34,069 nt of DNA from positions 1-34,069 of the IMG/VR virus record IMGVR_UViG_3300046722_000215. One strand, written 5' to 3'. Below the pieces are notes generated by a model that was given only the letters and a program-made list of their open reading frames with translations, was not told where the DNA came from and ran no database searches. Positions 628 through 32,257 of the stretch are shown one piece after another; the first letter of the stretch is position 1; each line of letters begins with the position of its first letter. Position numbers and translations under genes: made by a program. The DNA comes from a virus.

Positions 628-2337
628 GTGCCGCCGAGTCGCGATTACGCGGCTATCTGCAATCAGTACGCACGGGATGTGCTGGCCGGCCGTATCGTGG
701 CATGCAAGTGGATCCGGCTCGCCTGCAAACGTCATTTAGATGACCTGGCGCGCGAGCGCACGCCGGATTATCCGTATCGCTTCGACGCCGGCCGGGCCGC
801 AAAGGCCTGCAGGTTTATCGAATTGTTGCCGCACGTCAAAGGCCAGTGGGCACGGCCGGCGCCGGGCGAATCGAACCGCATTCGGCTCGAGGCCTGGCAG
901 GTTTTCAAAACTGCGAACCTTTTCGGTTGGGTAGAGAAAGCAAGCGGCTTTCGCCGCTTTCGCCGGATGTACGAATGTGTGGCGCGCAAGAACGCCAAAA
1001 GCACATGGGCCGCCGCGGTGGGCCTATACATGTTTGCGGCCGACGGGGAATACGGCGCCGAGGTCTATTCCGGCGCCACGACTGAAAAACAGGCCTGGGA
1101 AGTATTTCGGCCGGCCTGGTTGATGGCGCAGAAAACGCCGGAACTACAGCAATATTTCGGCGTGACTATCAACGCCAAAAGTTTACTTATCGATGCCGAT
1201 TATTCGCGATTCGAGGCCGTCATCGGCAAACCGGGCGACGGTGCGAGCCCGTCGTGCGCGATTATCGATGAGTATCACGAGCATTCGACGCCGGAGCTCT
1301 TGGAAACGATGGAGACGGGCACGGGAGCCCGTCAACAACCGTTAATTATGGTAATCACAACCGCGGGCTCGCTGATCGAGGGACCGTGTTACATCATGCA
1401 ACAAGAGGCGCAGCAGGTCCTCGAGGGTACGCTCGATAATGATCGTTTCTTTGTGCTGATTTTTACCCTTGATGAAGAGGAAGAATGGAAAACCGATGCC
1501 GGCATTTTCAAGGCGAATCCTAACGCCGGCGTGTCGGTTTCGCTCGAGTTTCTGCGCTCACAACAACGAGAGGCAATGCAGTCGGCGCACAAACAGGCCA
1601 CGGTCAAGACAAAACATTTCGATTGTTGGGTGAACGCGCGGCGTGCCTGGATGAATATGGAGGCCTGGCGCCGGTGTGGAGATGCCAGTTTGCGCGTGGA
1701 TGATTTTCGCCATGAACCGTGTTACGAGGGCGCCGACCTGGCCGCCAAAATTGATTTGGCGAGTCGCGTCAAGGTTTTTATCCGCGACGAAGAGGGGGTC
1801 CGGCATTATTACGTTTTTGCGCGTAGTTACGTGCCGCGGGATAGAGCGCTAGATACGCGGCATCCACATTACGAAAAATGGGTACACGCCGGCGCCCTGA
1901 TTGCACACGACGGGCCGGAAATTCAATTGGCGAAGATTCAACGCGAAATCGAGGATGAGCTCGAGCGCTTTCAATTTGCGGCCATTGCCTTTGACCCGTG
2001 GTCGGCTTTGCAGATGCAGCAAGAGCTCGCCGCGCGCACCAGTAACGACGTGGTGATTTCCATACCGCAGACGGTTCAATATCTTTCGCCGGCCATGAAA
2101 GAGCTCGAGGCCGCGGTACTTTCGGGGCGTTTTCATCACGACGCAAACCCAGTTCTGACCTGGGCGATTTCGAACGTGATGGTGCGCGAGGATGCCAACG
2201 AAAATATTTTTCCACGCAAAGAAACGACGGGCGCCGGCTTGCAAAAAATCGATCCGGCGAGCGCTCTATTCAATGCCATGAATCGGGCTATGGTCGGCAA
2301 TCCGGCCGCCGCCGGCGATTGCTTTTTCCTGGGGTAA
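628..2337 (+). CDS. terL: Terminase large subunit (ATPase/nuclease packaging motor)
   Basis: This is the ATP-driven motor that fills proheads and cuts concatemers. With the GTG at 628 the protein has 569 residues, normal for the HK97-like family. The opening (YARDVLAGRIVACKW) is typical of these proteins. The ATPase domain shows a Walker A-like RKNAKS at residues 120-125 and Walker B IIDE at 212-215, followed by YHEH. The nuclease domain shows acidic residues in GADLAAKIDLAS (about D370) and FDPWSA (D456), which fit the RNase H-like metal site. The reading frame is open back to a TTG at 481, but that would overlap the small subunit by 146 bases. The GTG one base after its stop is the more natural, coupled start. 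Confidence 0.95.
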   Translation: MPPSRDYAAICNQYARDVLAGRIVACKWIRLACKRHLDDLARERTPDYPYRFDAGRAAKACRFIELLPHVKGQWARPAPGESNRIRLEAWQVFKTANLFGWVEKASGFRRFRRMYECVARKNAKSTWAAAVGLYMFAADGEYGAEVYSGATTEKQAWEVFRPAWLMAQKTPELQQYFGVTINAKSLLIDADYSRFEAVIGKPGDGASPSCAIIDEYHEHSTPELLETMETGTGARQQPLIMVITTAGSLIEGPCYIMQQEAQQVLEGTLDNDRFFVLIFTLDEEEEWKTDAGIFKANPNAGVSVSLEFLRSQQREAMQSAHKQATVKTKHFDCWVNARRAWMNMEAWRRCGDASLRVDDFRHEPCYEGADLAAKIDLASRVKVFIRDEEGVRHYYVFARSYVPRDRALDTRHPHYEKWVHAGALIAHDGPEIQLAKIQREIEDELERFQFAAIAFDPWSALQMQQELAARTSNDVVISIPQTVQYLSPAMKELEAAVLSGRFHHDANPVLTWAISNVMVREDANENIFPRKETTGAGLQKIDPASALFNAMNRAMVGNPAAAGDCFFLG

Positions 2338-6338: not shown

Positions 6339-6581
6339 ATGCGCGTGATTGCCGTCCAAAACTTTCAATGGCCGAGCATGACGCGGCCGGCGCGGCCGGG
6401 CGAAGTGCTCGAGCCGGCCGACGAGCTCGGACAGGAGTGGATCCGGCTCGGCCTGGTGCGGCGCATGGATGAGCCGGGCGAGGAACAGGCAATTCGCGAG
6501 CCGGGGGAAAAGGCGATTCAAGAGCCGGGGGAAAAGCCGGCGCGCAAACCGCGCGAAAACGCCGCGCGTTCGAAACGGTGA
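6339..6581 (+). CDS. Small protein downstream of capsid with EPGE repeats
   Basis: The 80-residue protein begins with a short beta-rich segment (MRVIAVQNFQWPS, RPGEVLEPADELG) of the kind found in small proteins encoded directly after capsid genes, where some act as capsid decoration or head-completion factors. Its second half is a charged repeat in which EPGE recurs three times about every nine residues, then a Lys/Arg-rich end. The repeat is visible in the DNA (6471-6540) and probably arose by slippage. Start ATG 6339 has a strong AGGAGG at 6321-6326. I do not recognise the family with confidence. Confidence 0.7.
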   Translation: MRVIAVQNFQWPSMTRPARPGEVLEPADELGQEWIRLGLVRRMDEPGEEQAIREPGEKAIQEPGEKPARKPRENAARSKR

Positions 6582-6584
6582 CGC

Positions 6585-7481
6585 ATGCTGAATGCTTATC
6601 CGATTACCGAGGCAATTCTCGAGCCCGTGACGCTGGCGCTCGCTAAGCAGCAATGCCGCATAGATCCCAGTTTTGGCGATGACGACCAACTGTTGCTTGT
6701 CTATATCGGGGCCGCGCGGCGCCTGGCCGAGAAGAAAGTGCAGGGCTCGTTTTTTAATCGCACCTGGCGCCGCACGATTGATAACTTTCCTCTGGCCGCG
6801 AATTACGACACCACGATTTCGCCGGCCGATAGGGCGGGCTGGCCGTTCGCGGCGCAGATATGGAATCGCATCGTCATTGATTTGCCTGGCGGGCGTACGC
6901 GCAAAATCAATTCGCTTTCTTATCTCGACGGCAACGGCAACCTGTTTACCGTGGATCCGAGCGTGTACCGAGCCGACCTGGCGAGCATTCCGGCGCGGCT
7001 CACGCCGGCCAAGAATTCTTTGTGCTGGCCGTGGCAAGGGCAATATTTGCCAGGCTCGGTAGAAATTCTTTACGAGGTTGCGAACTATACCGCGGCCATT
7101 ATCGGCGAGGCCTTTACCGTGCCCGTGGCCGGCTCGGGGGGCACGTCGAACTATGAACTGAAAAAGACCTGGGCAACCGGGCTCGAGAGGTTGGTGAATG
7201 GAAGCGGCGCCGCGGTGGCCGGCGCCTTGCTCCAAACGGATCCGGCGACGGGCACGAGTTCTCTCGTATTGCCGGGCGCCCTGGCCGGCCAGGCCTTGAC
7301 GGTGGATTACGACGTTAAGAATGTGCCCGACGACATTACGAATGCTTTACTGATGCTGATTGCTCACTGGTATCGGAATCCTGAGGCGACTACAGATTTG
7401 ACTTTAAAAACGGTGCCGATGGCGGTGGATTGCCTGCTCGAGGGGCACGCGATTACCTGGGGAGACTATCGCCCGTGCTGA
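6585..7481 (+). CDS. Head-tail connector (phiE125 gp8 / HK97 gp6-like) with internal insert
   Basis: It forms the ring below the portal. The N-terminus (PITEAILEPVTLALAKQQCRID, then a DDQLLLVYIGAARRLAEKKVQG helix) and the later DDITNALLMLIAHWYRNPEA helix are hallmarks of the gp6/gp8-type connector. The protein has 298 residues where about 190-230 is common. The extra length lies between the beta strand ending near YEVANY (about residue 168) and the C-terminal helix, a segment of roughly 75 residues rich in Gly, Ala and Thr that looks like a beta domain. Its stop overlaps the next gene's GTG. Confidence 0.85.
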   Translation: MLNAYPITEAILEPVTLALAKQQCRIDPSFGDDDQLLLVYIGAARRLAEKKVQGSFFNRTWRRTIDNFPLAANYDTTISPADRAGWPFAAQIWNRIVIDLPGGRTRKINSLSYLDGNGNLFTVDPSVYRADLASIPARLTPAKNSLCWPWQGQYLPGSVEILYEVANYTAAIIGEAFTVPVAGSGGTSNYELKKTWATGLERLVNGSGAAVAGALLQTDPATGTSSLVLPGALAGQALTVDYDVKNVPDDITNALLMLIAHWYRNPEATTDLTLKTVPMAVDCLLEGHAITWGDYRPC

Positions 7482-10840: not shown

Positions 10841-13156
10841 ATGGCCGAGGCCGCAGGTTCGGTAAAAATCATCCTGGCCGTCGACTCTACGTCTTATTCG
10901 GCGGCGCTCGAGAAAGCTAAAGCGCAGTTAAAGCAATTAGAGGGGCATGTCAGTTCGGCCGCGTCTACGACTAAGCATGAGATGGGAGAAGCTAAGGGCG
11001 CGATTGCCTTACTTGGCGAGCAAATCGGGGTTAATTTGCCGCGGCACATTCGCTCATTTATTGCTGAATTGCCGGGCGTGGCGTCGGCTATGGCCGCGGC
11101 CTTTTCCGCGGTGGCGATTGTCGGTATCGGCCTGGCGATTTACGAGACGGGCAAAAAAGTTTACGAATTTGCGCAGAAGAATCGCGAGGCCGCCGAAAAG
11201 AACGCCGAGGCCTGGGAGAAATCGCGCCAGTCGTTACATTTACAGAATCTCGAGCTCGACGCGTCGACCATTCATTTACAGAACGAGCTCGCTAAACTCG
11301 AGCACAAGCCGGAAAACAAACTGGCCGAGGAAATGGCGAAAACGGCCGTCGAGGTGGCAAAACTCGATCAGGAATTAGTGCGCGCCATCGATGACGCCCG
11401 CAAGCTACTGACCGAGCAAGAGCCGGGATGGATAGCGCAAACATTTCTTCACAAGGGGGGCACGCAATACGAACAAGAGTTAGCCAAAACGCATTCCAGG
11501 GCGCTTTCTGAAACGACGTCTTTAGAGGATCAACTAAACAAGAGCGTCAAATATCACAATTCGCTGATCGAGCGCCGCAACGAGCTCGAGGCCGCGCAGG
11601 CCGGCAAGGGTACCTATCTCACCGCAACCGGGGAGACAAAGACGCTCGACAAAGGCCGATTCACATTGGCGACGGGCCTGCAAAGCGAGATTGATGCGAC
11701 CAACGAATTGCTCGCCAATCAACGGCCGGAGCAGGCGCGCATTCAAGCGCAGATGAATCAAGATACCGCGCAGGCGGCGCTCGATAAAAAACAACAGCAA
11801 ATCGCGGCCGCGGCGTGGGAAAAACAGGCCGCCGAAAAACAAATGCAGGAATGGCGCCGCGCGCTCGACGCCCAAAAAGCGGTGCGCGCTCTTTCGGTGC
11901 AGGATGAGGCCAATTACTGGCAGGGGCTGGCGGCAACCGTCAGGAACAATGCGCCCTTGCTGGTGGCGGTGACCGATCAGGCCAACAAGGCAGTCGCGGC
12001 CGCCAACAAAAAGTTTCAAGAGGATTTATTCGGCGGTTGGGTGGCCGCGAATACCATTTTCCAGCAAGAGCAGGCGCAAGACGCGCGCATCCACGATGCC
12101 GTCATGGCGGGATGGGAGCAGGCGCAACGGGGGCTCGCCGAGCAAGTGAGGGAACAGCGCGACGCGGCGCGCGAGAATTTCGAAAATACCGCGGCCGAGA
12201 TTGAGGCCGCCGAGCGGATCCAGGCGGCGGCGATTCAATTACAAGAACAGCGCGGGCAATTGTCGCACCTGGCCGCGGCGCTGGCGACTCAGCAATTGCA
12301 CGAGTTATCGGCCGCGCAGTGGCAAGCGGCGCTGGGCGTGGCGCAAGAGGCCGGCGCCGGCATTGGCTTGCGGGATATCGAGCGGCACGGCGGCGGCGTG
12401 GGGCGCCAGGCCGAGACAGATAGCGCCGCGGCTAAATCGGCAACCGCGCTCGGCGCGCTCCAGGATTCGGCGAGTCAACTGGCCGCGCAATTTACCGATT
12501 TGCCGGCGCACATTCGCGAGACGTTGACGCAAACCGTGGACACCATCAACGGCGCACTCTTGCGCACCCTGACCGATCCGTACCACCGCGGGCAATGGAA
12601 AGATGCAGGCAAACAAATCTTTACCGGCATCGCCGGCACAGGGCTCAAGATGGCCGAGGGTTCGCTCGGCAAACTAGTGCCAGGCCTGGGGAAATTGGGC
12701 GCCAGTGCGGCCAATGCAATGTGGGTGAGGATGGTTGAGGGCGCCGCTCTGGGGGCGGGCGCCGTGCCCGGCGCTATCGGCAAGCTATTTTCAGGCAAAA
12801 ACATCAGTTCCGCAAGTTCGGCCAGTGGTTCAATCTGGAGTCAATTGTTTGGTGCGCTGCTTCACTTTCAGGGCGGCGGCGATATTCCTACCGGCATGCC
12901 GGCGATTGTGGGCGAATCGGGGCCGGAGCTCTTTGTGCCGTCGACGTCGGGCCGCATCATTTCCAATCGCACCATGAACATGGGCGGCACGTTTTCGCAC
13001 GTGGTCAACGTGGACGCCCGCGGCGCCGGTGATCCGGCGGCCGTCGAAGCCGCGGTGCATCGCACCATGGGCGTCTATTTACAGCAGATTCCGGCCATGA
13101 CGGTGGAGACGATGCGCAACTACAATGCTCGCCGGCCGAGCGGCGCGAGGGTTTAA
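10841..13156 (+). CDS. Tail tape measure protein
   Basis: This 771-residue protein sets tail length and travels inside the tube. It shows the expected composition: a beta start (VKIILAVDSTSY), long Ala/Glu/Gln/Lys helices and coiled coils (about 150-490), a hydrophobic helix near residues 84-105, a Gly/Ala-rich hydrophobic region (about 575-670), and the C-terminal GGGDIPTGMPAIVGESGPELF motif common to tape measures. At about 0.15 nm per residue the tail would be about 115 nm. The ATG has GAGGGGGGCGT upstream. It lies immediately after a strong terminator, so its mRNA probably depends on read-through or antitermination. Confidence 0.93.
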   Translation: MAEAAGSVKIILAVDSTSYSAALEKAKAQLKQLEGHVSSAASTTKHEMGEAKGAIALLGEQIGVNLPRHIRSFIAELPGVASAMAAAFSAVAIVGIGLAIYETGKKVYEFAQKNREAAEKNAEAWEKSRQSLHLQNLELDASTIHLQNELAKLEHKPENKLAEEMAKTAVEVAKLDQELVRAIDDARKLLTEQEPGWIAQTFLHKGGTQYEQELAKTHSRALSETTSLEDQLNKSVKYHNSLIERRNELEAAQAGKGTYLTATGETKTLDKGRFTLATGLQSEIDATNELLANQRPEQARIQAQMNQDTAQAALDKKQQQIAAAAWEKQAAEKQMQEWRRALDAQKAVRALSVQDEANYWQGLAATVRNNAPLLVAVTDQANKAVAAANKKFQEDLFGGWVAANTIFQQEQAQDARIHDAVMAGWEQAQRGLAEQVREQRDAARENFENTAAEIEAAERIQAAAIQLQEQRGQLSHLAAALATQQLHELSAAQWQAALGVAQEAGAGIGLRDIERHGGGVGRQAETDSAAAKSATALGALQDSASQLAAQFTDLPAHIRETLTQTVDTINGALLRTLTDPYHRGQWKDAGKQIFTGIAGTGLKMAEGSLGKLVPGLGKLGASAANAMWVRMVEGAALGAGAVPGAIGKLFSGKNISSASSASGSIWSQLFGALLHFQGGGDIPTGMPAIVGESGPELFVPSTSGRIISNRTMNMGGTFSHVVNVDARGAGDPAAVEAAVHRTMGVYLQQIPAMTVETMRNYNARRPSGARV

Positions 13157-31088: not shown

Positions 31089-31946
31089 ATGTCTTGGCGC
31101 GCGAGCGGGTATGTTAAAGAACTGCAGGAGTGTCCTAACGGTGAACTGATTTCCTGTCACGAGAAATGTGTGGCGTTTGTGCTGGCCGACTCGCATCAAG
31201 ATAAGACGGGACTCTATACGTATCCGAGTCTCGAAACAATTGCGCGGGATGCGCGTGTTGATACGCGCACCTGCCGGCGGCTGCTCGCCGCCCTAGAGCG
31301 AAAAGGCATCATCGAACGCATACAACCGGAGCACTACGGGCGTGGCCTGCTCACGTTTTACAGCTTTCCAGCGCTCGATCAGGCGCGGGAAATTAACGGC
31401 CAAGTGCATATAAAAGGGGGGCAAGGTGCCCGCCTTTTTTTTGCGAAAAGGGGGGCAAAAGGGGGGCAGAAGGGGGACAAAACGGTACCGCACACTAAAG
31501 GTAGAATAGTAACAGGAACTAAAAAGCAAAAGATTCCCCCCTATAATCCCCCCGTTGTCACGGGGGGATGTTCGAAACCAAGCGTGTCGACGCGTGGTTT
31601 GTTTGACGACGAGCCGACGCCGGCCGGCAATGGGCCGCCGGGCGAGGCGCGGGCGGCCATCGAGCGGGCCATCGAGCAGACGATGAGCGGTTGTAGTTGG
31701 ACGAAAAAACGCCTGCGCGAAAAACTGCGCGCCGTGATTCGGCTCGAGTGCGACAAAGGCCAGGCCGCGGCCACAACCGCGCTCGCAATCATGGCGGCGT
31801 GGAAATGTCAGGCCGAGAATGCTCGGTTATTGCGCGGTACGTTCGGGCCGGCGAATTTTCTCGAGCTCGGAATTTGGAAAGATTCGAATTTGCTGCTATG
31901 GGACCACGCCCGCGTAGAGATGAACCGCGGCGGGGCGCATCTATGA
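31089..31946 (+). CDS. Replication initiator-like winged-helix protein
   Basis: The 285-residue protein has an N-terminal winged helix-turn-helix (about 15-95; CVAFVLADSHQDKTGLYTYP, LETIARDARVDTRTCRRLL, KGIIERIQPEHYGRG) like phage replication organisers. A low-complexity linker (about 108-160) is encoded by the G-run repeats described below, followed by a helical C-terminal domain (AIERAIEQTMSGCSWTKKRLREKLRAVIRLE) that could recruit a helicase or loader. This N-domain / origin-linker / C-domain plan resembles lambda O. No separate helicase gene was found. It overlaps the next ATG. Confidence 0.68.
   Translation: MSWRASGYVKELQECPNGELISCHEKCVAFVLADSHQDKTGLYTYPSLETIARDARVDTRTCRRLLAALERKGIIERIQPEHYGRGLLTFYSFPALDQAREINGQVHIKGGQGARLFFAKRGAKGGQKGDKTVPHTKGRIVTGTKKQKIPPYNPPVVTGGCSKPSVSTRGLFDDEPTPAGNGPPGEARAAIERAIEQTMSGCSWTKKRLREKLRAVIRLECDKGQAAATTALAIMAAWKCQAENARLLRGTFGPANFLELGIWKDSNLLLWDHARVEMNRGGAHL
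31412..31442 (+). terminator. Terminator-like hairpin inside the initiator gene
   Basis: AAAAGGGGGGC at 31412-31422 pairs with GCCCGCCTTTT (about 31428-31438) with one G-G mismatch and a five-base loop, followed by further Ts. It has the form of an intrinsic terminator but lies in coding sequence, so it may attenuate initiator transcription or be part of the origin. Confidence 0.4.
31412..31567. other. Candidate replication origin with iterons and G/C-run hairpin
   Basis: Within the initiator gene, AAAAGGGGGGC-type units start at 31412, 31446, 31457 and 31468; the last three are tandem with an 11-base period and the fourth is AGAAGGGGGAC. An A-rich stretch follows (31490-31534), then CCCCCCGT (31548-31555) and ACGGGGGG (31560-31567), a perfect 8-bp stem with a four-base loop. 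The iterons, AT-rich spacer and hairpin are in the order expected of an origin. Confidence 0.6.
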
Positions 31947-32257
31947 ACGTGCGGCGTCGCAGTGAGCGCGAGCAGCGCTTTAATTTCGCGCTCGGTCAAG
32001 CGATTGCGCAGGCCAGGAAAAGGCTCGGCATCAGCGGCGTTCAACTGGCGAGTTATCTCGAAATTTCTCAGAACAGTCTTTACGGAATCGAGCTCGGCCG
32101 CCGATGCTCGTTTTTTCTGGTTGTGGAAATTGCGAAAACACTCGGTATAAACCTGGCCGAGCTCATGCCTGATGTGAGTTTATTTTCTTCGTCGTTCCGC
32201 TCTAATCAGAAAAATGACAAAACACTAGGCGCGCACGGCGAACGTGCGGTAGGCTGA
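31943..32257 (+). CDS. Cro/CI-type helix-turn-helix regulator
   Basis: The 104-residue protein has an XRE-type domain at about 15-75: ALGQAIAQARKRLGISGVQL, ASYLEISQNSLYGIELGRRC, FFLVVEIAKTLGINLAELMP. The C-terminal 25 residues are polar. It has no protease-like cleavage domain, so it resembles Cro or a short repressor rather than a full lambda CI. It starts at an ATG overlapping the initiator stop. Confidence 0.82.
   Translation: MNVRRRSEREQRFNFALGQAIAQARKRLGISGVQLASYLEISQNSLYGIELGRRCSFFLVVEIAKTLGINLAELMPDVSLFSSSFRSNQKNDKTLGAHGERAVG

Follow-up and report, generated by a model that had tools for sequence, protein, structure and literature searches.

Initiator Gene of an Uncultivated Tailed Phage

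The stretch of DNA analyzed here, referred to as the window, is a 34,069-nt IMG/VR virus record with a tailed-phage gene set. Genes for the terminase large subunit, portal, protease, major head, tail, and fiber proteins occupy its left part, and small early genes lie in its right part. The product of the initiator gene (Table 1) matches the Pfam family HTH_36 (E 8.6e-7; 29.1 bits, above the curated cut-off of 25) and several PHROG replication-initiation (O-like) families (phrog_270, E 2.2e-8; phrog_391, O-like, E 4.9e-5), the O-like families weakly. Phage_rep_O is absent among its Pfam matches up to E 0.05; the remaining ones are weak (DnaD_N, LexA, MarR) and include no RepA/RepE/TrfA-type Rep. 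LexA is the best structural match of the N-terminal domain (Z 8.1), the other PDB folds being general winged helices. The C-terminal domain yields a confident helical model in AlphaFold2, for which no convincing Pfam, PDB-sequence, or fold match was found; its weak viral matches include two replisome organizer proteins at E above 1. Of the window genes scanned, none was recognized as coding for a helicase or a loader. The adjoining gene (31943-32257) overlaps the initiator stop codon and encodes an HTH_3 regulator, and 28915-29394 matches PHROG 997, annotated as 'replication terminator'.

TABLE 1. Coordinates of the initiator gene and of the sequence features within it
Feature	Position in window	Strand	Remarks
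Initiator gene	31089..31946	+	285 aa; HTH_36, PHROG replication initiation, AlphaFold2 model
Initiator protein layout			Winged helix 1-98; disordered linker about 100-182; helical C-terminal domain 184-282 (AlphaFold2)
Predicted recognition helix, coding part	31263..31301	+	Residues 59-71 (AlphaFold2); Arg63 codon 31275-31277
Iteron 1, AAAGGGGGGCA	31413..31423 (AAAAGGGGGGC from 31412)	+	Read from sequence; left half of dyad
Inverted iteron, AAAGGCGGGCA (AAGGCGGGCA), both as read on minus strand	31427..31437	-	Right half of dyad; 13-nt offset, conserved
Eight-T run after dyad	31435..31442	+	Length varies among relatives
Array iteron 2, AAAGGGGGGCA	31447..31457 (AAAAGGGGGGC from 31446)	+	
Array iteron 3, AAAGGGGGGCA	31458..31468 (AAAAGGGGGGC from 31457)	+	11 bp from iteron 2
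Array iteron 4, GAAGGGGGACA	31469..31479 (AGAAGGGGGAC from 31468)	+	11 bp from iteron 3
A-rich, T-poor stretch with GGAAC	about 31496..31535	+	Candidate unwinding element
C6-TATAAT-C6	31536..31553	+	In relatives C5-6, two to four bases (mostly TA or TAA), C5-6
Palindrome/hairpin ATCCCCCCGT(tgtc)ACGGGGGGAT	31546..31569	.	Perfect 10-bp stem, 4-nt loop

Iterons and a Dyad in the Linker-coding Region

Four AAAGGGGG(G/A)CA units lie inside the initiator gene, three of them in exact 11-bp register. An initial annotation had reported these units together with an A-rich stretch and a C6/G6 hairpin and had placed them where the gene, taken to be that of a winged-helix initiator, codes for the linker. 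Direct reading of the sequence found the units where they had been reported, the A-rich stretch and the hairpin with its perfect stem are present, and the gene assignment agrees with the HTH_36 score, the PHROG matches, and the disorder predicted by AlphaFold2. A fifth, inverted unit had been overlooked; it pairs with iteron 1 as a dyad. The iterons encode residues ~109-130, within the disordered stretch 100-182.

The motif AAGGRGGRCA occurs six times in the window, where 0.12 occurrences are expected and none of 100 shuffles reaches six. Four of the matches fall in the iteron cluster, and single others are found at 11453 and 19006. When the gene was shuffled among synonymous codons, with protein and codon usage held constant, 2 of 1000 shuffles produced four exact sites, and none of the 1000 produced the 11-bp pairs.

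Profile searches of viral contigs and genomes recovered another 23 genes that share this N-terminal domain, from IMG/VR phages and Acidobacteriota genomes; two of them, L043 and L044, are distant relatives. The phage probably belongs to soil Acidobacteria, since the named cellular matches are Acidobacteria MAGs. No matches were returned by tblastn of the initiator protein against named phages, by tblastn of the relative L011 against plasmids, by blastn of the iteron array, or by a genome scan with the single initiator sequence; a scan with the alignment instead recovered Acidobacteria loci. Exact tandem G-run iteron patterns in viral contigs proved to be mostly unrelated non-coding arrays, the exception, L008, being the L003 contig again. 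The contig L004 carries several head-to-tail 11-bp GGGGGGCAAAA repeats at ~6555-6610 (reverse complement) with no ORF over 60 aa, as does L006; unit and period are those of the window array, and neither contig shows an evident initiator gene at this place. In L007, an unrelated phage, three GGGGACAAAA-type units (GGGGACAAAAGGGGGACAAAAGGGGGACAAAA) lie beside the end of a methyltransferase-like gene at ~705-740 (reverse complement).

All 23 relatives keep the linker repeats; loss of the repeats from relatives that retain the gene, which the initial annotation had named as evidence against an origin, was not seen. The geometry is likewise maintained across 24 genes, counted with the near-identical L026 and L031 excluded: 21 of 22 representative genes share a dyad offset of 13 nt, and 52 of 60 array spacings measure 11 bp (three are 12 bp, three 22 bp, and two other). 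With an 11-bp spacing, successive copies are therefore placed in different reading frames, and the array copies use the three frames evenly (28/26/29). An 11-bp unit cannot preserve one peptide, and selection has thus acted on the DNA; as judged from these sequence comparisons, it is the iteron DNA and not the encoded peptide that is conserved. Array and dyad sequences change together between phages.

The repeats travel with the winged helix, because L016 and L019 have exchanged their C-terminal domain and retained the iterons, and L045, L047, and L057, which are related in the C-terminal domain only, combine unrelated N-terminal domains with repeats of another kind or spacing. The linkers of L045 and L047 contain palindromic TGTCGCTCNGAGCGACA-type repeats, another apparent origin design.

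Elements Downstream of the Iterons

The last iteron is followed by a stretch of 47-102 nt that is A-rich and mostly T-poor, and then by two C5-6 runs with a few bases between them and a stem-loop. At the position of the A-rich stretch, most relatives contain GGAACA-type repeats. Their stems, in most cases 58-84 nt past the last iteron, are of other sequence than in the window, and pairing persists as the sequence varies (CCCCCCGT/ACGGGGGG, CCCCCTCG/CGAGGGGG, GTCCCTCGC/GCGAGGGAC, TCTTGCTGGTTC/GAACCAGCGGGA). The stem-loop is common and not universal, as an automated stem search chose a different or weak stem in L009, L043, L044, and L078. In named phages (L059 and L061-L066), the linkers of O-like genes carry GAACC(A/G)TCA-type repeats just past the iterons, where the window family has its GGAACA repeats. 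Perhaps both represent a general unwinding or strand-loading element.

Residue 63 Covaries with Iteron Position 7

We compared the N-terminal domains of the 21 core members with their iterons and found that column 63 is the sole column separating the iteron types. In the nine genes that encode Arg63, all 48 sites carry G at iteron position 7; in the nine that encode Gln63, 55 of 56 sites carry T or C there. These counts refer to sites and correspond to about three independent events. The tree requires at least three changes of type (the starred branches). L014, with Gln63 and T/C sites, is placed in an Arg clade (support 97/97), and L042, with Arg63, is the sister of the Gln63 member L038 (support 95/92). 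At three of its four array positions L042 carries G; its last site and its dyad are of the other type, as though the array had been captured midway between types. L078 combines Tyr63 with T at position 7. The rule is confined to the core family, because L043 and L044 break it, having Arg at the aligned position and GGGTCGC/GGGTAGC sites.

Residue 63 is located within the recognition helix predicted by AlphaFold2, and we take it to correspond to Glu44 in the recognition helix of Escherichia coli LexA, based on a manual, by-eye rather than computed LERKG/LARKG alignment. It seems from the sequence pairs that residue 63 sets the iteron that is recognized, with Arg preferring G and Gln preferring T or C at position 7. 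That position 7 follows residue 63 across phages indicates that the repeats are the predicted binding sites of the initiator. The G-run would then be the Arg-type version of a site that is AAAGGGTGACA in other members.

Alternative Explanations for the Repeats

If the repeats formed an autoregulatory operator, the initiator would control transcription of its own gene, and replication would start elsewhere. In several members the dyad is followed by a T-run, and two facing sites next to a directly repeated array recall the operator and iterons of plasmid Rep systems. The sites, however, lie ~320 nt inside the gene and not at a promoter, the length of the T-run is not conserved, and an A-rich stretch and a palindrome follow the sites as in lambda ori; we regard an operator as improbable. 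Two further readings were rejected and appear less probable still. Selection for the peptide KGGQKGDK, with the DNA repeats being secondary, could account for the recurrence of Lys/Gly-rich linker peptides in the family, but the reading frame shifts from one copy to the next (KGGQ, KRGA, KGDK), the frames are used evenly, and the repeats are lost in synonymous shuffles that encode the same protein, making this explanation hardly credible. An intrinsic transcription terminator composed of dyad and T-run, the rest being incidental, would fit the folding energy of the window dyad RNA (-16.5 kcal/mol) and the eight T that follow. In L025, L036, L075, and L076, however, the dyad halves mismatch at the variable position while each half fits the iteron consensus. 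The T-run is variable, and a terminator would leave the array, the hairpin, and the link to residue 63 unexplained, so that we give this reading almost no weight.

The mechanism favored in the initial annotation, an origin working through G-quadruplexes formed by the G-runs, did not withstand comparison with the relatives. The window does contain five G5-6 runs on one strand, three of them separated by 5 nt, but only these three are close-set, and the fourth is 28 nt away. A canonical four-run motif with loops of up to 7 nt is absent from the window linker and was found in 3 of 24 linkers, in one of which, L018, it lies outside the iterons. Moreover, the G-run is not conserved: many relatives break it (GGAGGAC, GGGCGGC, GGGTGAC, GGGCTAC) and keep spacing and dyad. 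Since iterons with interrupted runs, such as GGAGGAC in L010 and GGGTGAC in L025, leave geometry and dyad intact, the G-run is a feature of the Arg63 subtype, and a role for quadruplexes is very unlikely. The lambda iterons are bound as a duplex, with O contacting G residues in G-tracks (PMC7466680), which by analogy would be sufficient precedent for duplex recognition here.

A Predicted Replication Origin within the Initiator Gene

From the sequence evidence, we conclude that the iteron cluster is very probably the replication origin of this phage; its plan is of the lambda type, and its site geometry, one inverted pair in addition to direct 11-bp repeats, is new. Cumulative GC skew increases over nearly the whole window and points to no origin. 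In the mechanism that we propose, the N-terminal winged helix would bind the 11-bp iterons as double-stranded DNA, and this is the step with the strongest support. Three neighboring sites one helical turn apart would be occupied next to one another on the same helix face, with residue 63 in the recognition helix reading iteron position 7, and two more sites would face each other on the dyad, which could bind a dimer in analogy to plasmid Rep proteins. By analogy with lambda, initiator assembled on the array may then open the adjacent A-rich stretch in negatively supercoiled DNA. In the most tentative step, the C-terminal helical domain, tethered by the linker, would bring a helicase or helicase loader to the exposed strand, and a loading, priming, or boundary site might be marked by the conserved hairpin that lies beyond the A-rich stretch. 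Helicase recruitment is something we infer, because the C-terminal domain has no useful match.

A different division of labor, which we consider possible though rather unlikely, would combine the lambda location with plasmid-type sites. Monomers on the array would open the DNA, dimers on the inverted pair would act as a brake or handcuff, and residue 63 would re-target the initiator. If true, new origin specificities would arise within one gene, with protein and site inherited together.

Phage origins outside a few model systems are mostly unmapped. Our literature searches found the lambda, Stx, and PICI origins, nothing on the initiator family of the window, and no experimental work on origins of Acidobacteria phages. 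For the predicted iteron origin, sequence alone yields sites, geometry, and a one-residue specificity prediction. As site and protein lie in one gene, the family provides a natural series of matched pairs for studying how initiator and origin change together.

Comparison with Known Origins

The lambda-like plan proposed in the initial annotation finds support: the annotated lambda ori has the same order within O, and the repeats occur in all relatives with the initiator domain. As in lambda and the Stx phage O origins, the elements lie where the gene of a winged-helix initiator codes for the linker, with iterons followed by an A-rich stretch and a palindrome (in lambda, ACAAAAGAAAAAAGAAAAGATT and then TCGTCAGAGAATTCTGGCGA). 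The window initiator differs from lambda O in having no Pfam Phage_rep_O match. Plasmid iterons are found outside coding sequence, about 22 bp apart, and their initiators belong to a different protein family. In the origins of the iteron plasmids P1, F, R6K, and RK2, an A+T-rich region adjoins direct repeats that are in phase with the helix (PMC5043065). The window family likewise has direct repeats in helical phase, given the 11-bp spacing in 52/60 cases, and in site geometry it stands nearer to these plasmids than to lambda. The lambda iterons are used in several reading frames (PMC7466680), as are those described here. In contrast to lambda, where 18-19 bp inverted repeats are bound by O dimers and lie 20-24 bp apart (PMC5043065), the window units are 11-bp direct repeats one turn apart, plus a separate inverted pair.

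The HTH_36/O-like initiators of named phages (for example, Bordetella phage PHB09, Pseudomonas phage PotUPM1, Aeromonas phage 56) similarly consist of a winged helix followed by repeats in the linker DNA, with a dyad and AAAGGGTGCA units in PHB09. They differ in that those sampled with clear repeats have a spacing of 17-23 bp and no contiguous 11-bp array. Iteron-like CCCCCGCA/CCCCCGAA repeats with the G-run on the other strand and a 17-22 bp spacing are present in L061, L062, L065, and L066, phages of Sphingopyxis, Stenotrophomonas, Pseudomonas, and Microcystis. The named-phage HTH_36 genes are annotated merely as replication or hypothetical proteins, with no origin annotation in the stretches fetched. 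As they too carry linker repeats, origins inside HTH_36 O-like genes may be general and under-annotated.
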